DNA of 53,002 nucleotides. Origin: an uncultured Verrucomicrobiales bacterium. Its GTDB lineage: Bacteria; Verrucomicrobiota; Verrucomicrobiia; Limisphaerales; Palsa-1400. Under the pieces are notes generated by a model. That model searched no databases. It saw only the letters and a program-made list of their open reading frames with translations, and was not told the DNA's origin. The first letter of the stretch is position 1; every line of letters begins with the position of its first letter. Positions 3,705 to 15,997 of the stretch are shown piece after piece. The stretch is taken from NCBI GenBank assembly GCA_903927905.1, contig CAIYOY010000230.1:1-53002 (forward strand), written 5' to 3'. The position numbers and the translations under genes were made by a program.

Positions 3705-3799
3705 ATGAAATTTTTCGCAGTGAATGATTGAGAAATTTATTTTCTTTTTTCTTGCCGCGTTGCGGTCAGCTAAATAAGAGTTGAACGTTCTTTGAAATT

Positions 3800-3948
3800 T
3801 CGTTCGTAGCCAGCGCTGGGAACCTCGTGAGAATCGAGGACGGTTGCGCCACTGTGACGGGTTACAATCTCCCAAGGCCACTGATTCGCAAGAATTGGGA
3901 AGGCGGGAGTGAGGTAAGAAGCCCGGAAGTCAGGACATCAGACTGGTT
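3800..3948 (+). promoter_or_regulatory. cobalamin (AdoCbl-type) riboswitch
   Basis: The conserved core of the cobalamin riboswitch is present in order. GGGAA (3818-3822) is followed by a GAATC segment, then GCCACTGTGACGGG around 3848 (the L5 strand of the kissing-loop), CCAAGGCCACTG around 3872, GGGAAGGCGGGAG around 3897, and the B12 box AAGTCAGGACATCAGAC at 3927-3943. Spacing and total length of about 150 bases fit the family. It lies about 210 bases upstream of the secreted-protein gene on the same strand, with a candidate terminator between. Cobalamin binding would be expected to switch these genes off. A role in B12 acquisition for the genes downstream is inferred from this control. Confidence 0.93.
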
Positions 3949-4026
3949 ATGCTCGTCAGGCCTAAATTGCGCCCCGCGTGTGCGGAAAACAATTATGGCA
4001 CTTCTCCGACAAAGAGAAGGATGAGG

Positions 4027-7290: not shown

Positions 7291-7344
7291 ATTAATTTCC
7301 ACTTGTTCGATCACCCAAACGGATTTATTTTTCTTGGCTATCAC

Positions 7345-10300
7345 ATGATGACGTGCCGCAATCTGAGCCGGAATCTTGGCCTTTGGATCTGGGCTGGCGC
7401 ACTCATTTTAACTTCTCACGTTCACGCCTCAACTTTTTGGTCGTTTCAAAAACCGGTCCAGCCTGAGACGCCCAAGGTAAAAAACACGAAATGGGCCAAG
7501 ACGGATATTGATAAATTTATACTCGCGCAGTTGGAGGCGAAGAAGCTCAAGCCTGCAGCTCCGGCAGACAAACGCACGTTGATTCGACGAGCCGCTTTTG
7601 ATCTGACCGGGTTGCCACCGACACCGCAGGAGGTCGAAAATTTTCTCAAGGACAAGTCGCCGAATGCCTTTGCCAGGGTGGTGGATCGTTTGCTGGCGTC
7701 GCCGCAATATGGCGAACGGTGGGGACGGCATTGGCTCGATGTGGTGCGGTATGCGGATTCGTTGGATGCGCGGAGTCTCGGCAGTGAGGGCGATATTGGT
7801 TTGGCGTGGCGATATCGGGATTGGGTGGTGAATTCGTTCAATCGGGATTTGCCGTATGATCAATTCATTCAGCAACAAATTGCCGGCGATCTCCTACCCG
7901 GCGATTACGATACAAATCGCATTGTCGCTACCGGCATGTATGCGATCGGCAACTGGGGCAATGGCGACGCCGACAAAGATAAAATCCTGACCGACATCGC
8001 CGATGACGCCGTAGATGTGACCAGTCGTGGATTTCTCGGCATAACGATGGCTTGCGCTCGTTGCCACGATCACAAATTCGATCCGATCACGACGGCGGAT
8101 TATTACTCAATGGCAGGGTTCTTTTTCAGCAGTCATATTTTGGCGAAGTTGACGCCCAAAGGCGCGGGGGAAAATATCATCAGGATTCCGCTGGCTTCAA
8201 CGGCGGAGTTGGCCAGGCGGAGTGAGCGCGAGGCGAAGATGACGAATTTGACGGCGCAGATCGAGAAGGTGACGGATGGAGAAATTGTGGCGATGGCGAA
8301 AACACTGCTGCCGGAGACTGCGCGATATTTGATGGCGGCGGCGGAATTTAAAAATCGTCCGGCGATGATGGCGGGGATCGGGCCGGTGGAGTTTGCGGGG
8401 AGGTTGAATGGAGGGGAAGCAAGTGAGGAAGCGGCTCAGGTTAATTCTAACGTCGCTGGAACGAGTCACGCTGCTGCGGACAGGAATGTCCGCACTCCGG
8501 TGACGGGAGCGTTGCTGAAAAGTTGGAGTGATTATCTGGGGTTTGGGGATGCGAAGTTGATGAATCATCTGGCGAAGGATTTGTTGGGGAAACGCGGGTT
8601 GCACGCGTTGCGGAATGGCAAGGATGCGGACACGCCGTCGGTGGTGGCGAATACCACGGCGGAAGAGATTTCATTTTTGAGCATTCGGCTGCCAGGGAAA
8701 AACTTGGCACTGCATCCCTCGCCTACTGCCGGGGTAGCGGCGGAATGGAGAAGTCCGGTGAGTGGAAAGGTTCGTATCAAGGGTCGGGTGGCGGATGCGG
8801 ATCCGAATTGCGGGGATGGCATTGCTTGGACGATTGATTTGCGACATGCGGGTGTGATCAAGGGCTTGGCTTCCGGCGAGATTCCCAATGGCGGCGCGCA
8901 GGATTTTAAGGAGGGAAAAAATGCGGAGCGATTGGCGGAGATTGTCGTGGAGGACGGAGACATGCTGCAAGTGGTGATTTTGCCCAAGGCGGAATATAGC
9001 TGCGATACGACGGTGGTGGAATTTGAAATCACCGAGTTGGATGGAGCGAAGCGGACCTGGAATTTGTCCAAGGACGTTTTGCCGTTGATCGAGAACAAGG
9101 TGGCGCCTTTTGCCGATTCGTTTGGCAATCCAAGCGTCTGGTACTTCTACGATCTCGCTGATCAACCGACGACGATTGCGGGGGCCACGAATTCGCCGCT
9201 GGCGCAATGGATGCAATTAGTGGCACGCAAGGCCCCTGCAACCGAGACCGAATCGGTGGCGGCCCAGATCCAGGCGTTGCTGTTGAAGGAAGTGCCGACG
9301 AATTCACCGTTGCGGCAGTTGTCGGATGATTTGAAAAATCCGCGTAGCAAGTTTTGGTCTTATATGCGGTCTGATGAAAATAATTTTTCAGCCACGACAC
9401 GCGAGAAGCTGACGGGATTGAATGATGAACTGGCCACGCTCAAGAAGAACGAACCGCCGCCGTTGCTCATGGCCCACGCCATGGTGGATGGCGGCACACC
9501 GGAAAGCCCTCACGCCGGTATGCACGATGTGAAGATTCATATTCGCGGAAAATATGACCGGCTCGGGGACATCGCTCCGCGTGGTTTTCCCAAAGTCATC
9601 ACGGCAGCGAATCCGGTGATCGCGACGAACACCAGCGGACGGCTGGAGCTGGCCAAGTGGATCGCGAGTCCGGAAAATCCGCTGACGGCCCGGGTGATGG
9701 TGAATCGCATCTGGCAGCATCATTTCGGCGAGGGCATCGTGCGAACGCCAAATAATTTTGGCAAACTCGGCCTGCCGCCGACGCACCCGGAACTGCTGGA
9801 CTATCTGGCGTGTGAATTTGTGAAATCCGGCTGGTCCATCAAAGCCCTGCACCGCGCCATCATGTTATCCGCAGTGTATCAACAATCCAGTTCGCCCGAT
9901 CCCGCCACGCTGAAAGCCGATCCGGATAACCTGATGTTCGGCCATTTCAACCGCCAGCGCCTCGAAGCCGAAGCTTTGCGCGACAGCCTGCTCGCCGCTG
10001 CTGGCAAACTGGACCTGACCATCAGCGGGCCATCCACCAACAGTCTGAACAGCAATCGCCGCACGCTTTACTTGACGACCATCCGCTCGGACCGGGCCAA
10101 TTATCAGGCGTTGTTCGATGTCGCCGATTCCACGGCCATCGTGGAAAAGCGGCTGAACTCAACGGTGTCACCCCAGGCGTTATTCATGCTGAATAATCCG
10201 TTCGTGCTGGCCCAGTGCAAATCCCTGGCCGAGCGGGCGCAGAAAGAAGGACCAAAGGAAACCGGAAAGAAAGTAGATTGGCTTTACCGATTGCTTTACG

Positions 10301-10455
10301 CGCGACCCGCGACGAGCGAAGAGATCAAGATTGCGCTAAAGGTTCTGTCAAAAGCGGCCAATGGACGGTGGGGCGAGGCTACCGACGAGCCGGGTCTTTG
10401 GCAGCAATATTGCCAGGTTCTCCTTTGCGCCAATGAATTTATTTATGTAGATTAG
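7345..10455 (+). CDS. PSD1-type protein: DUF1549 (PSCyt2) + DUF1553, secreted
   Basis: This 1036-residue exported protein belongs to the class abundant in planctomycetes and Verrucomicrobia. ATG 7345 gives an N-terminal signal sequence (LGLWIWAGALILTSHVHAS). An upstream TTG at 7303 only adds unlikely residues. DUF1549 comes first: ADKRTLIRRAAFDLTGLPPT, YGERWGRHWLDVVRYADS, and the haem-type motif CARCHDHKFDPI. A long middle part (about residues 275-740) is variable. DUF1553 follows: NPLTARVMVNRIWQHHFGEG, LPPTHPELLDYLA, FNRQRLEAEALRDS, FDVADST, SPQALFMLNNPF. No N-terminal PSCyt1 cytochrome domain is present, so this is the short form. The partner DUF1501 gene follows after 11 bases. The pair is generally thought to act outside the cytoplasm, possibly on polysaccharides; the reaction is unknown. 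A REP-like hairpin lies in frame at 8469-8499. Confidence 0.93.
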   Translation: MMTCRNLSRNLGLWIWAGALILTSHVHASTFWSFQKPVQPETPKVKNTKWAKTDIDKFILAQLEAKKLKPAAPADKRTLIRRAAFDLTGLPPTPQEVENFLKDKSPNAFARVVDRLLASPQYGERWGRHWLDVVRYADSLDARSLGSEGDIGLAWRYRDWVVNSFNRDLPYDQFIQQQIAGDLLPGDYDTNRIVATGMYAIGNWGNGDADKDKILTDIADDAVDVTSRGFLGITMACARCHDHKFDPITTADYYSMAGFFFSSHILAKLTPKGAGENIIRIPLASTAELARRSEREAKMTNLTAQIEKVTDGEIVAMAKTLLPETARYLMAAAEFKNRPAMMAGIGPVEFAGRLNGGEASEEAAQVNSNVAGTSHAAADRNVRTPVTGALLKSWSDYLGFGDAKLMNHLAKDLLGKRGLHALRNGKDADTPSVVANTTAEEISFLSIRLPGKNLALHPSPTAGVAAEWRSPVSGKVRIKGRVADADPNCGDGIAWTIDLRHAGVIKGLASGEIPNGGAQDFKEGKNAERLAEIVVEDGDMLQVVILPKAEYSCDTTVVEFEITELDGAKRTWNLSKDVLPLIENKVAPFADSFGNPSVWYFYDLADQPTTIAGATNSPLAQWMQLVARKAPATETESVAAQIQALLLKEVPTNSPLRQLSDDLKNPRSKFWSYMRSDENNFSATTREKLTGLNDELATLKKNEPPPLLMAHAMVDGGTPESPHAGMHDVKIHIRGKYDRLGDIAPRGFPKVITAANPVIATNTSGRLELAKWIASPENPLTARVMVNRIWQHHFGEGIVRTPNNFGKLGLPPTHPELLDYLACEFVKSGWSIKALHRAIMLSAVYQQSSSPDPATLKADPDNLMFGHFNRQRLEAEALRDSLLAAAGKLDLTISGPSTNSLNSNRRTLYLTTIRSDRANYQALFDVADSTAIVEKRLNSTVSPQALFMLNNPFVLAQCKSLAERAQKEGPKETGKKVDWLYRLLYARPATSEEIKIALKVLSKAANGRWGEATDEPGLWQQYCQVLLCANEFIYVD
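8469..8499. repeat. single REP-like hairpin inside the PSD1 coding sequence
   Basis: GCTGCTGCGGACAGGAATG followed by TCCGCACTCCGG forms a hairpin with a 7-bp stem (GCGGACA / TGTCCGC) and a 4-base loop. Its flanks (CTGCTGCG before, GC-CTCCG after) match the right-hand REP arms at 505-535 and around 11970-11997. Here it is read through in frame as SHAAADRNVRTPV, in the variable part of the protein. No second inverted arm is evident beside it. Confidence 0.55.
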
Positions 10456-10466
10456 GAGATAACGCC

Positions 10467-11891
10467 ATGCCACATCGCCCACAACTCTTTAGCCGCCGCC
10501 AGATGTTGCGCCAGTTTGCCAACGGTTTCGGCGTCCTCGGTTTGGCCGGTCTTTTCGGCAACGAATTTGTAACCAACGTGCTGGCGACAGAGAGCAATCC
10601 CCTGCTCCCCAAGCCCTCGCCCTACCCCGCCAAAGCCAAGCGGGTTATTTTTCTTTTCATGTCCGGCGGGCCGTCGCATGTGGACACGTTCGATCCGAAG
10701 CCCCGGCTGAGTAAAGATAACGGCAAAGAACTTCCTTTTGCCAAACCCAAACTCGAACGCACCAAAACCGGAAATCTTTTGCAATCGCCGTGGACGTTCA
10801 AAAAATACGGACAGAGCGGCACCGAGGTGAGCGAACTTTTCCCGCACGTCGCCACTTGCGTGGATGACATGTGCGTGGTGCGCTCAATGGTCGCGGACAA
10901 CATCAATCACAACGGCGCGTGCCTGCAAATGTGCACCGGCGAACAGGCCTTCTCCCGGCCAAGCATGGGCTCGTGGCTGCTTTACGGGCTGGGCAGCGAG
11001 AATCGCGATCTGCCGGGCTTCGTCGTCATCAGCCCGACGCAACCGGCCCAGGGTGCACCGCTCTGGGGTTCCAGTTTTCTCCCGGCCACCTTTCAAGGCA
11101 CGCTGGTCTCGGACATGAGCAATCCGATCGCCAACTTGAAGAACCCGGCGTTCACTTCGATGCAACAGCGCCATCAACTTGACATGTTGAAGGATTTGAA
11201 TCAGTTGCACCAAAAACAGCGCGAGGAAGACAGTCGGTTGAGCGCGCGGATAGAGTCGTTTGAACTGGCCTTCCGCATGCAGGCGCGCGCGCCGGAAGCG
11301 TTTGACATCACCAACGAATCGCCCGAGACGAAAAAACTTTACGGCCTGGACAACAAGATCACGGAAAATTTCGGCAAACAATGCCTCATGGCCCGTCGCC
11401 TGGCCGAGCGCGATGTCCGCATGATCCAGGTCTTTCACACCACTACGGCCACGCGCACCGCCTGCAATATTTGGGATCAACATTCGGATTTGAAAAAAAA
11501 TCTGGCTGATAATTGCGCAGCCGTGGACAAACCGATTGCCGGACTGCTGAAAGATTTAAAAGCGCGCGGATTATTGGAAGACACCCTGGTGATTTGGGGT
11601 GGAGAATTTGGGCGCACGCCGACAGCCGAAGGGACGAACGGGCGCGAACATCATCCGTTTGGTTTTTCGATGTGGCTTGCGGGCGGCGGCATCAAACCCG
11701 GCACCGTCTATGGCGCGACCGATGAATTTGGCTGGCACGCGACGGAGAATAAAGTTCACGTCCACGATCTACATGCCACCATTCTTCATCTCATGGGCAT
11801 CAACCATGAAAAATTGACCTACCGTTACAGCGGTCGTGATTATCGGCTGACCGATGTGAGTGGGAATATTGTTCATGGGATGTTGGCTTAA
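10467..11891 (+). CDS. DUF1501 family protein, Tat-exported
   Basis: The product has 474 residues and belongs to the DUF1501 family, related to sulfatases and alkaline phosphatases and usually paired with DUF1549/DUF1553 proteins. The N-terminus has a twin-arginine type signal (SRRQMLRQFANGFGVLGLAG, residues 8-27). Recognisable blocks are VIFLFMSGGPSHVDTFDPKP, MCTGEQAFSRPSMGSWLLYG, WDQHSDLKKNL, LVIWGGEFGRTPTAEG, GREHHPFGFSMWLAGGGIKPG and the ending HATILHLMGINHEKLTYRYSGRDYRLTDV. The ATG at 10467 is preceded by AGGAG at 10455-10459, a good ribosome site. With the PSD1 gene 11 bases upstream it forms the standard two-gene operon of these phyla. Substrate unknown. Confidence 0.95.
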   Translation: MPHRPQLFSRRQMLRQFANGFGVLGLAGLFGNEFVTNVLATESNPLLPKPSPYPAKAKRVIFLFMSGGPSHVDTFDPKPRLSKDNGKELPFAKPKLERTKTGNLLQSPWTFKKYGQSGTEVSELFPHVATCVDDMCVVRSMVADNINHNGACLQMCTGEQAFSRPSMGSWLLYGLGSENRDLPGFVVISPTQPAQGAPLWGSSFLPATFQGTLVSDMSNPIANLKNPAFTSMQQRHQLDMLKDLNQLHQKQREEDSRLSARIESFELAFRMQARAPEAFDITNESPETKKLYGLDNKITENFGKQCLMARRLAERDVRMIQVFHTTTATRTACNIWDQHSDLKKNLADNCAAVDKPIAGLLKDLKARGLLEDTLVIWGGEFGRTPTAEGTNGREHHPFGFSMWLAGGGIKPGTVYGATDEFGWHATENKVHVHDLHATILHLMGINHEKLTYRYSGRDYRLTDVSGNIVHGMLA

Positions 11892-11998: not shown

Positions 11999-12136
11999 AA
12001 TTTTAAATCGTGCCAACTTTTGTCGCGCACAAAACTTTTTCAAAAGTTTTTTCCTTGAGAAAAATTTAAAATCGGCTATTTGTATTAATAATAAATCGCA
12101 CCGCTGCGACTGTTCTTTGGAAAAGATTTTTAGAAT

Positions 12137-12327
12137 TTAACCCTGCCATGTTCGTGATCAGAAACTAAGTCCTTGGACCGTAATAAATACGCGAACAATG
12201 GGACTCGCGTTCGGTCGTGGCCGACAGGCCTTTACTGGAAGCCGAAAGCGCCCGATAGAGTCCCGCCTTTGAACTCTAAGTCCAAAGGAACAGTTTATAC
12301 ACGGCATTACGGTGGGGTTAATTTTTT
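12137..12327 (+). ncRNA. ssrS: probable 6S RNA
   Basis: About 185 bases fold like 6S RNA. The closing stem pairs TTAACCC (12137-12143) with GGGTTAA (12315-12321), continued by imperfect pairing of CCATGTTCGTG (12146-12156) with CACGGCAT around 12300-12307. A large central bubble follows. The apical stem pairs GGGACTC (12200-12206) with GAGTCCC (12258-12264) and, inside it, TTCGG with CCGAA. The 3' side of the bubble holds the hairpin CCTTTGAACT-CTA-AGTCCAAAGG (12266-12288), as in known 6S RNAs. A T-run at 12322-12327 follows the closing stem. TAGAAT at 12131 could be a -10 box. The position directly upstream of rarA (next to bsrA in Bacillus) and fau (next to ssrS in E. coli) supports the call. 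An alternative closing pair, ACCGTAAT (12177-12184) with ATTACGGT (12306-12313), also exists. Confidence 0.7.
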
Positions 12328-12328
12328 A

Positions 12329-12467
12329 AAAGCTCCAAGCGCCAACATCCAAATTCCAAAGAAACTTCAAATATCAAACATCAACACCAGTCTCCCAGGT
12401 GGATTGGAGCTTTTATCCTCCGTAGTGCTTTTGACGAAGGAGGATGGATGTTGGAATTTGGAGCTTT
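12329..12467. repeat. inverted repeat, AAGCTCCAA type, upstream of rarA
   Basis: AAAGCTCCAAGCGCCAACAT at 12329 and GGATGTTGGAATTTGGAGCT near 12446 are imperfect inverted arms. Between them is a run of CAAA/CAACA words and a second hairpin ATCCTCC...GGAGGAT (about 12416-12446). Oligopurine/pyrimidine words with AAGCTCCAA are a common intergenic repeat class in this group. The right arm ends 19 bases before the rarA start, so it probably lies in the rarA leader. Confidence 0.6.
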
Positions 12468-12485
12468 CCCTGCTATGTTTCTCCC

Positions 12486-13853
12486 GTGACTGGAAGCGAC
12501 CTTTTTTCCGCCGCGCCTGAAACCAAAAAACTTGATTCAGACGCGCCGGAACCCGTTTCCCCTTCCCATCAACCGCTGGCCGCGCGCATGAGGCCGCGCG
12601 TCCTCGACGAATTTTACGGGCAAACTCATATCCTGGCCAAAGGACAACTTCTGCGCCGCGCTATCGAGGCTGACCGAATCCAGTCCATCATTCTCTATGG
12701 TCCTCCGGGTACCGGAAAAACATCTCTGGCGCAGATCATCGCCAACCAAACGAAGAGCAAATTTGAACGCTTGAGCGGCGTGGAAAGCAATGTGGCCGAC
12801 ATGCGCCGCGTTTTGGCGGCAGCGGCCAATCGGTTGGAAAACAAAGGTCTTTCCACCATTTTGTTCGTGGATGAAATCCATCGCTTCAACAAATCCCAAC
12901 AAGATGTTCTTCTGCCCGATGTGGAAAGCGGCGTGGTCCGGTTGATCGGCGCCACCACGCACAATCCTTTTTTCTTCGTCAATTCGCCGCTGGTCTCGCG
13001 CTCGCAAATTTTTGAACTGCGCTCGCTCAGCGAGGAAGATCTGCTCGCGCTGTTGCATCGCGCGCTGGCTGACTCCGAGCGCGGGTTGGGCTTCATGAAA
13101 CTTAAAACGGAGGAAAATGCCTTGCGTCATTTAGCGAGAGTGGCCGATGGCGACGCGCGCAAGGTGTTGAATTCTCTGGAAATCGCCGCCTTGACCACCG
13201 CGCCCGGGTCGGACGGCACCATCCACATCACCTTGTCGGTGGCCGAACAGTGCATTCAGAAAAAGGCCATTGTTTATGACGGGGATGGCGATGCGCACTA
13301 CGACACCATTTCCGCATTCATCAAATCCATGCGCGGCAGCGATCCGGATGCCGCGCTTTATTGGCTGGCCAAAATGATCCACGCCGGTGAAGACCCTCGT
13401 TTCATCACGCGCCGCATCGTGATTTGCGCAGCGGAAGACGTTGGACTGGCCGATCCCATGGCCCTCATCCTCGCCCAAGCCGCCCATCACGCGGCTGAAT
13501 TTGTCGGCTGGCCCGAAGCCCGCATTCCCATCGCCGAAGCGACGATCTATATTGCCACCGCGAATAAAAGCAACAGTTCGATCGTCGCGATTGATGCCGC
13601 GCTGGAAGATGTCCGTTCCGGTCGAACACTGCCGGTGCCGGAACATTTGCGGGATGGACATTACGCCGGGGCCAAGCAGTTGGGCCATGGCAAGGATTAC
13701 CAATACGCCCACGATCATCCTGATCATTTTGTCCCGCAGGATTATCTCGGTGCCGCGCGCCGATACTATGAGCCGACGGATCAAGGCACGGAAAAAAAGA
13801 TCAAAGAACGCCTGGATAAATGGCGGGCGCAAATCGAGGCCGCGAAAAAATGA
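12486..13853 (+). CDS. rarA: replication-associated recombination protein RarA (MgsA)
   Basis: This AAA+ ATPase acts at stalled replication forks and single-strand/double-strand junctions. The 455-residue product shows the clamp-loader-like N-terminus AARMRPRVLDEFYGQTHI, Walker A YGPPGTGKTSLAQ, Walker B LFVDEIHRFNKSQQD, sensor 1 GATTHNPFFFVNSPLVSRS, and the C-terminal tetramerisation region MIHAGEDPRFITRRIVICAA. GTG 12486 is chosen because it gives the usual MTGSDLF start. The frame opens earlier, but that part falls in the repeat at 12329-12467. The stop overlaps the ATG of fau by four bases, so the two are coupled. The 6S RNA candidate lies just upstream. Confidence 0.95.
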   Translation: MTGSDLFSAAPETKKLDSDAPEPVSPSHQPLAARMRPRVLDEFYGQTHILAKGQLLRRAIEADRIQSIILYGPPGTGKTSLAQIIANQTKSKFERLSGVESNVADMRRVLAAAANRLENKGLSTILFVDEIHRFNKSQQDVLLPDVESGVVRLIGATTHNPFFFVNSPLVSRSQIFELRSLSEEDLLALLHRALADSERGLGFMKLKTEENALRHLARVADGDARKVLNSLEIAALTTAPGSDGTIHITLSVAEQCIQKKAIVYDGDGDAHYDTISAFIKSMRGSDPDAALYWLAKMIHAGEDPRFITRRIVICAAEDVGLADPMALILAQAAHHAAEFVGWPEARIPIAEATIYIATANKSNSSIVAIDAALEDVRSGRTLPVPEHLRDGHYAGAKQLGHGKDYQYAHDHPDHFVPQDYLGAARRYYEPTDQGTEKKIKERLDKWRAQIEAAKK

Positions 13854-14422
13854 CCGCCACCAAAGAAGAATTTCGCCAACAGCTCCGCGCGCGTGTCAAA
13901 GAACTTTCTCCGACACAACGACAGGAGCTTTCCGAAGCCGCGCGTAAACAATTAAGTTTCCAATGCGCCTGGGGCGATGCTCGCGCGATCCTCTTTTACT
14001 CACCGCTGCCGGACGAAATTGATTTGTCACCGCTCATGGGCGAAGCGCTGGCCGCAGGCTGCAAAGTCGCCCTGCCCCGTTTTATTCCTGAAACCGGAGT
14101 CTATGCCGCTTATGAAATCACCCATCCGACGACCCAATGCATCCGGGGAACTTTCAACATCCTTGAACCATCACACGAATGTCCGGTTTTTCCGTTGAAC
14201 CGGCTGGACTTGGTGCTGGTACCTGGAGTAGGCTTCGACCAAAGCGGGCATCGGCTTGGCCGGGGCCGGGGATTTTATGACCGGTTGTTGATTTCCGCAT
14301 CTGGAGTCAAATGCGGCGTCGGCTTCGACGAACAATTGGTCCCGCAGCTCCCGGTGGAATCGCACGATGTCCATTTAAATTGTATTTTGACGCCGACTCG
14401 CTGGTTGGAGTTTGGCCGTTAA
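13850..14422 (+). CDS. fau: 5-formyltetrahydrofolate cyclo-ligase
   Basis: It converts 5-formyltetrahydrofolate plus ATP to 5,10-methenyltetrahydrofolate in cytoplasmic one-carbon metabolism. The 190-residue product carries FYSPLPDEIDLSPLM, KVALPRF, LDLVLVPGVGFDQSGHRLGR and the diagnostic GRGRGFYDR, ending with ESHDVHLNCILTPTRWLEF. ATG 13850 overlaps the rarA stop as ATGA. An upstream in-frame ATG at 13820 lies inside rarA and adds a non-conserved segment. rny follows after 15 bases. Adjacency of 6S RNA, rarA and fau is seen in distant phyla, in part or whole. Confidence 0.93.
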   Translation: MTATKEEFRQQLRARVKELSPTQRQELSEAARKQLSFQCAWGDARAILFYSPLPDEIDLSPLMGEALAAGCKVALPRFIPETGVYAAYEITHPTTQCIRGTFNILEPSHECPVFPLNRLDLVLVPGVGFDQSGHRLGRGRGFYDRLLISASGVKCGVGFDEQLVPQLPVESHDVHLNCILTPTRWLEFGR

Positions 14423-14437
14423 ATTGTCGGTTATCAC

Positions 14438-15997
14438 ATGACTTGGAATCCATTTATTGCTGGCGCTGTCATCCTGCTGGCAGGCGTGCTCCTCGGCGGC
14501 CTGCTTTTGCGCTGGCGTGAACGCGGCATTTGCTCCGACCTCAAAGCCCGGGAAAAATCCATGCTGGAAAATGCGCGCCGGGAAGCCGACGCCCTCGCCC
14601 GCGAGGCAAAATTGGCCGCCAATGAAGCCGCCCTGAAAGTACGCTCCGAAACCGAGCAAATGGTCGCCACCCGCCAAAAAGAAATCGCCGCCGCCGAACA
14701 AAAGCTGACTGAGCAGGAAGCCCAGATCAACCGGGAAATAGACGATCTCCGCCGGCACGAGGAAACTCTCCGTCTGGAGAAAGAACAAGTCGCCAAAAAA
14801 TCCCAGGAACTGGCGCGCTTGACTGCTGAAGCCGTCGGCTTGAGCAAGCAGCGCCGCGAGCAATTGGCCTCCATTTCAAAATTAAATGAAACGGAGTTAA
14901 AAGCCGCTTATTTAAAAGAAGTGGAGAACGAAAGCTTGCGCGATGGAGCAACGCTGACCCAACACATCCTCGACGACGCGAAGGTCAAAGCGGAGGAAAA
15001 AGCGCGGAAGATCATCAGCCTCGCCATCCAACGCTACGCTGGCAACCACAGCTTCGACACCTCCACTACCACCGTCACCATCAGCAATGACGAGATCAAA
15101 GGCCGCATCATCGGACGCGAAGGTCGCAACATCCGCGCTTTTGAAGCCGCCACCGGCGTGACCGTGATGATTGACGACACACCCGGCGCGATTGTTCTTT
15201 CCGGTTTCGATCCTGTACGCCGGGCGGTTGCACGTGAAGCGATGGAACGCTTGATTCTGGACGGTCGAATTCATCCCGCGCGCATTGAAGAAGTCGTTGC
15301 CAAAGTTTCGCAGGAAACCGATGAATCCATCATGCGCGTCGGTGAAGAAGCGGTCATGAAATTGGGACTCGCGCCAATGCATGCGGAAATCATAAAACTC
15401 CTCGGCAAACTTCATTTCCGACACAGCTTCTCGCAAAATATTTTGCAACACTCCATCGAAGTCGCCCAGATTATGGGCCTGATCGCGGGCGAACTCGGCA
15501 TTGATATTCCCTCGGCCAAACGCGCCGGATTGCTGCATGACATTGGCAAAGCTGTCACCCACGAAATCGAAGGACCGCACGCGATAGTCGGGGCAGAAAT
15601 CATCAAGCGCTACGGCGAATCAGAAGCCGTGGTGGATGGCGTGGCCTCGCATCACGATGAAGTGCCGCACATCGGACTGCTCGGTATCCTGGTCAGCGCG
15701 GCGGATGCGATCAGCGCCTCGCGACCCGGCGCGCGGTCGGAAACCATTTTAACCTACGTCAAGCGGGTGGAAGATCTGGAGCGCATCGGCCTGTCCTTCC
15801 CCGGCGTTGAAAAATGCTTTGCCTTGCAAGCGGGCCGGGAACTGCGCGTCATGGTGCAACCCAACGAGGTCAATGACGAGCAGGCGTTTGCGCTGGCGCG
15901 GAATATTGCAAGGAAGGTAGAGGACGATTTGAATTATCCCGGGCAGATCCGCGTGACGATTGTGCGCGAAACACGCTGCGTGGAATTTGCCAAGTAG
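14438..15997 (+). CDS. rny: ribonuclease Y
   Basis: This membrane-anchored endoribonuclease begins mRNA decay. The 519-residue product has an N-terminal membrane helix (about residues 5-25), then a long charged coiled coil (about 30-190). The KH domain has the GxxG loop in GRIIGREGRNIRAFEAATGV. The HD domain begins with HFRHSFSQNILQHSIEVA and holds the catalytic pair in LLHDIGKAVTHE, plus ASHHDEV. Length and order are standard for Rny. It is preceded closely by fau and followed by a palindromic repeat at 16013, where the operon probably ends. Confidence 0.96.
   Translation: MTWNPFIAGAVILLAGVLLGGLLLRWRERGICSDLKAREKSMLENARREADALAREAKLAANEAALKVRSETEQMVATRQKEIAAAEQKLTEQEAQINREIDDLRRHEETLRLEKEQVAKKSQELARLTAEAVGLSKQRREQLASISKLNETELKAAYLKEVENESLRDGATLTQHILDDAKVKAEEKARKIISLAIQRYAGNHSFDTSTTTVTISNDEIKGRIIGREGRNIRAFEAATGVTVMIDDTPGAIVLSGFDPVRRAVAREAMERLILDGRIHPARIEEVVAKVSQETDESIMRVGEEAVMKLGLAPMHAEIIKLLGKLHFRHSFSQNILQHSIEVAQIMGLIAGELGIDIPSAKRAGLLHDIGKAVTHEIEGPHAIVGAEIIKRYGESEAVVDGVASHHDEVPHIGLLGILVSAADAISASRPGARSETILTYVKRVEDLERIGLSFPGVEKCFALQAGRELRVMVQPNEVNDEQAFALARNIARKVEDDLNYPGQIRVTIVRETRCVEFAK

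Follow-up and report, generated by a model that had tools for sequence, protein, structure and literature searches.

A Single-Copy 6S RNA Gene in an Uncultured Verrucomicrobiota Bacterium, Preceded by a Conserved boxA-Like Element That May Place It under Nus-Factor Control

The window, meaning the whole 53,002-nucleotide stretch of contig CAIYOY010000230.1 analyzed here, encodes a previously unannotated 6S RNA at positions 12137 to 12322 on the positive strand, preceded by a boxA-like element that is conserved in front of the 6S gene in the order to which this bacterium belongs (Limisphaerales). 6S RNA, a small RNA found in many bacteria, shuts down the main transcription enzyme, and the RNA described here is an expected member of this well-known family. 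BoxA is a control sequence typical of rRNA genes, where it functions as the site for NusB/S10. The conservation of this element, together with that of a promoter motif located further upstream, suggests that in this order 6S RNA probably arises from a precursor that has a leader and whose synthesis is controlled by Nus factors, a model to which, as a whole, we assign a probability of about 0.6.

Identification of the 6S RNA Gene

A sequence-only reading of the window had placed an unlisted 6S RNA at 12137–12327, naming a search with the RF00013 (6S RNA) covariance model and covariation among relatives as checks, and a better-scoring 6S gene elsewhere in the genome as a ground for doubt. In an Rfam cmscan search, positions 12137–12322 on the positive strand match RF00013 with 72.7 bits, exceeding the curated gathering score of 46.4 across the whole covariance model (model positions 1–187 of 187). 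This is also the sole match, as the Rfam search identified no second 6S gene in this genome, whose completeness is 81%. The minimum free energy of the strand is −65.7 kcal/mol (z = −3.34), a value as low as which was reached in none of 200 shuffles, and both the length of 186 nt and the single copy are the norm for this family (about 180–200 nt, with few copies per genome). The sequence elements named in the earlier reading, namely the TTAACCC/GGGTTAA closing stem, the GGGACTC/GAGTCCC apical stem and the T-run, are all present. The full-length match, the single copy, the fold z-score and these named elements, with the covariation described below, therefore identify 12137–12322 as almost certainly a genuine 6S RNA gene, present in a single copy in this Verrucomicrobiota bacterium, as had been proposed.

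The stretch ends 166 bases before the likely start of rarA and could be read as a structured 5′ untranslated region of that gene, such as an attenuator, rather than as a 6S RNA; this is highly improbable given that RF00013 is matched over its full length and that the 6S gene is located away from rarA in 23 of 65 genomes of the order, mostly on other contigs.

One member of the order has two 6S matches, G307:C55:19780–19960 and G307:C181:7139–7318, scoring 70.1 and 38.6 bits, which may represent a second 6S paralogue or an assembly effect.

Structure and Covariation of the 6S RNA

Helices and covariation were assessed in alignment A2, comprising 27 sequences that all belong to the same order as the window. 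Pairing in the canonical helices (closing stem, bubble-closing helix and apical stem) reaches 95% in these sequences, whereas sliding the helix partners cuts it to 50% or less. Both sides are changed in 13 of the 32 pairs, and not one of the five measures was matched in 500 shuffles. The canonical stems also emerged from RNAalifold analysis of 47 sequences spanning several classes, where 11 of 21 pairs showed double changes. The closing stem, large central bubble and apical stem of the 6S family are thus backed by covariation.

The 5′ arm of the closing stem (12137–12156) pairs with 12300–12321, forming helices 1 and 2, which are 93% and 100% paired and include five pairs changed on both sides. 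The 3′ arm leads into the T-run (12322–12327), and this segment on the positive strand (12300–12327) likely contains the 3′ end or terminator. The central bubble is closed by helix 3 (97% paired), in which the 5′ arm TCCTTGGAC (12170–12178) pairs with GTCCAAAGGA (12280–12289); one pair of this helix is G-C in the window versus A-U in most relatives. The apical stem, helix 4, consists of GGGACTC (12200–12206) and GAGTCCC (12258–12264) and is 90% paired, with five of its seven pairs changed on both sides. The 5′ strand of the central bubble (12179–12199), in which CCGTA is conserved across the order, is the proposed template for pRNA, and by analogy with E. coli the pRNA, beginning ACGGUCC and complementary to 12175–12181, may start near T12181.

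The sequence-only reading had also drawn a hairpin in the 3′ side of the bubble, CCTTTGAACT-CTA-AGTCCAAAGG, which did not hold as a 6S element. This hairpin is drawable in the window alone; its arms are 50.7% paired in relatives, compared with a shuffle mean of 51.4%, and the 3′ arm AGTCCAAAGG belongs instead to the conserved helix with TCCTTGGAC.

A Conserved boxA-Like Element Upstream of the 6S RNA

Comparison of loci from the order revealed a recurrent KHTCTTTG element upstream of the 6S 5′ ends, represented in the window by the boxA-like antiterminator GTTCTTTGGAAA in the putative leader (12112–12123, positive strand). Of 35 loci of the order, the window included, 30 have the boxA core within the 80 nt preceding 6S, versus 0.7 loci expected by shuffling and a frequency of 2.0% in background segments of 80 bases. 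For the 12-base match in the window, 0.31 occurrences are expected by chance in 53 kb; this lone match could be a chance occurrence, and the case therefore rests on positional conservation, the element lying at a conserved leader position between the promoter motif and the 6S RNA, with the −10 of the window itself being weak.

The same core is encoded in 16S leaders of the order, where KYTCTTTGA/G is found 114–142 nt before 16S in seven of eight loci (L320, L321 and L323 to L327), which is where the boxA of rRNA lies. The genome also encodes a NusB gene. As in an rRNA leader, the core in the window lies between a proposed promoter and a structured non-coding RNA; unlike an rRNA leader, the RNA that follows is 6S rather than 16S, and the distance to it is 5–32 nt across the order rather than about 115–140 nt.

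In other classes of the phylum, the core is found upstream of 6S in 25 of 59 loci, and when a slightly looser pattern is applied to the 90 bases upstream, all loci of groups f16, f18, f19, f24 and f29 have it. The rest of the window's class has the element in only 9 of 56 loci (absent in 47), it is absent in 14 of 15 Omnitrophota and similar loci, and a search of the 2-kb ssrS-fau region of E. coli returned none. The element is therefore dispensable for 6S RNA in general.

A short hairpin, TCGCA-CCGC-TGCGA (12096–12109, positive strand), is located directly 5′ of boxA in the window and is boxB-like in position, but it is weak (z = −1.5) and its sequence is not conserved. A conserved boxB-like hairpin before boxA was rejected as a feature of the order, where the average is weak (mean z = −0.8).

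Proposed Promoter and Alternative Readings of the boxA Element

Of 34 loci of the order, 17 have a promoter motif, TTGAG-N16/17-xATxxT, located 41–86 bases upstream of the 6S end, where 0.9 would be expected. In the window, CTTGAGA at 12054–12060 is in register with relatives in alignment A3, and the proposed 6S promoter (12055–12083, positive strand) consists of TTGAGA at 12055–12060 and a poor −10 near 12077–12083 that is not a clean match to the motif.

It is conceivable, though we consider it unlikely, that 6S is transcribed from a direct promoter at its 5′ end, with TTCTTTG being a DNA-level promoter element or a coincidence and no leader precursor being made. The hexamer TAGAAT (12131–12136) just before the RNA could serve as a −10 for such a promoter, and loci of group f5 of the same class and of Omnitrophota show direct promoters at the corresponding place. 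However, the order shows no conservation of a TAGAAT-like hexamer, and its mean best direct-promoter score is 3.97, compared with 7.0 for the remainder of the class. The variable spacing between boxA and the RNA is likewise unlike that of a promoter element, and the distal TTGAG promoter is conserved.

A second alternative, to which we give slightly less weight still, is that boxA serves the downstream operon, with 6S, rarA, fau and rny forming one antiterminated transcript from which 6S is cut out. The same strand and order of these genes in many families are consistent with this arrangement, as is the co-transcription of ssrS with fau (ygfA) in E. coli (PMC2848244). On the other hand, boxA is kept in 9 of 11 examined loci of the order where 6S is not beside rarA; its retention after 6S left rarA indicates that the element belongs to the 6S gene. 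The T-run following the closing stem of 6S and the 145-base interspersed repeat that separates 6S and rarA in the window also argue against a single operon transcript.

Proposed Leader Precursor and Mechanism

According to the favored leader-precursor model, transcription of 6S would start at the promoter ~45–85 nt upstream and proceed through a leader containing an rRNA-type boxA, at which NusB/S10 would load the Nus complex. This complex may shield the untranslated 6S transcript from Rho and aid its folding or processing, and a leader of ~45–50 nt would then be trimmed from the precursor. Family membership predicts that the mature RNA, ~186 nt long, folds into an open-promoter-like rod and binds RNA polymerase holoenzyme containing the housekeeping sigma factor, that promoters would be blocked in slow growth through this 6S-bound polymerase, and that 6S would be freed from the polymerase once a pRNA is synthesized with the 5′ strand of the central bubble as template.

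We favor, with moderate confidence, the reading that 6S transcription falls under the Nus-boxA antitermination system of rRNA, both in the window's order and in several further classes of the phylum, such that synthesis of the silencer would be tied to the machinery of the rRNA that it indirectly restrains. If the boxA leader works in this way, the Nus antitermination complex would have 6S RNA as a target alongside rRNA, and the leader would provide a directly testable coupling of rRNA synthesis to its global regulator. No link between boxA and 6S RNA was found in the literature searched, and we could not find there a description of this leader as a variant of the 6S gene, the RNA itself being of a known family; a survey of boxA outside rRNA by Baniulyte et al. 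states that non-coding RNAs were left out of consideration (PMC5725501).

Conservation of the 6S-rarA-fau-rny Gene Order

The 6S gene is followed directly downstream by three genes on the positive strand: rarA/mgsA (12489–13853; PF12002, 1e-69), fau, encoding 5-formyltetrahydrofolate cyclo-ligase (13829–14422; PF01812, 1.8e-39), and rny, encoding RNase Y (14438–15997; PF12072, 1.6e-31). The earlier reading had noted 6S, rarA and fau together and had suggested that their linkage is old, and the comparative data agree on both counts. The 6S gene is directly upstream of rarA in 42 of 65 genomes of the order having both genes, mostly 20–180 bases apart, and the phylum-specific model R1 adds five genomes missed by the Rfam fast scan, for a total of 47; rarA and fau are adjacent in 66 of 71 genomes of the order. 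Outside the window's class, rarA is directly downstream of 6S in 37 of 58 loci of the same phylum, representing 24 families, and fau is located within the fetched stretch in 34 of these 37. Many of these families have the genes on a single strand, and rny likewise forms part of the recurring order. No such placement of rarA was found among 56 loci from the rest of the window's class. A scan of public genomes identified the 6S-rarA order in Omnitrophota loci, several of which continue with fau and rny, as well as in one MAG each of Firestonebacteria, Bacillota and Kiritimatiellae, while Fictibacillus has the Bacillus-type arrangement with 6S on the opposite strand. The 6S-rarA-fau-rny order is therefore well supported as old within Verrucomicrobiota and Omnitrophota.

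The loci L218, L230 and L232 to L235 are negative in the Rfam fast search, yet a clear 6S is found upstream of rarA in each with the phylum-specific model; the Rfam 6S counts in this phylum are thus lower bounds. Beyond the five genomes of the order and L218, model R1 revealed no hidden 6S at Rfam-negative rarA loci, those with rarA-fau-rny in other families included, and a search for long closing stems at the remaining rarA loci without 6S returned nothing 6S-like. Some genomes contain a second, more distant rarA-like gene (~45% identity) without adjoining fau and rny (L184 and L185; one genome, G009).

Both neighborhoods that the sequence-only reading had named from other bacteria are documented: linkage of 6S to rarA has been published for Lactobacillales and B. 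subtilis (PMC8414754), and that of ssrS to fau for E. coli (PMC2848244), where it is also visible in the sequence record. The E. coli locus resembles the window in its full-length covariance match, its rod with a central bubble and a downstream fau on the same strand, and differs in that the window has rarA between 6S and fau and boxA upstream of 6S. The 6S genes of Lactobacillales and B. subtilis (6S-1, bsrA) neighbor rarA as in the window; however, rarA is upstream of 6S in Lactobacillales and on the opposite strand in B. subtilis, whereas in the window 6S and rarA share a strand, with 6S first and with fau and rny after rarA. The conserved order unites two linkages known separately, 6S-rarA in Firmicutes and 6S-fau in gammaproteobacteria, suggesting that these are remnants of one old arrangement; an earlier mention of rarA-fau linkage in the literature is possible. 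That this arrangement was ancestral to Firmicutes and Proteobacteria as well can only be inferred, because the strand is opposite in Bacillus and 6S has no rarA neighbor in E. coli.

Genomic Surroundings

The region between 6S and rarA contains a 145-base stretch (12326–12470) with inverted ends (23-nt arms, 87% complementary). Another 32 partial matches to this stretch occur across the genome, some of which overlap on both strands, marking it as an interspersed, MITE- or REP-like repeat. Upstream of 6S, positions 7303–11891 encode PSCyt2/PSD1 (DUF1549/DUF1553) and DUF1501 genes, and Rfam identifies a cobalamin riboswitch at 3794–3961 on the positive strand (74.7 bits).
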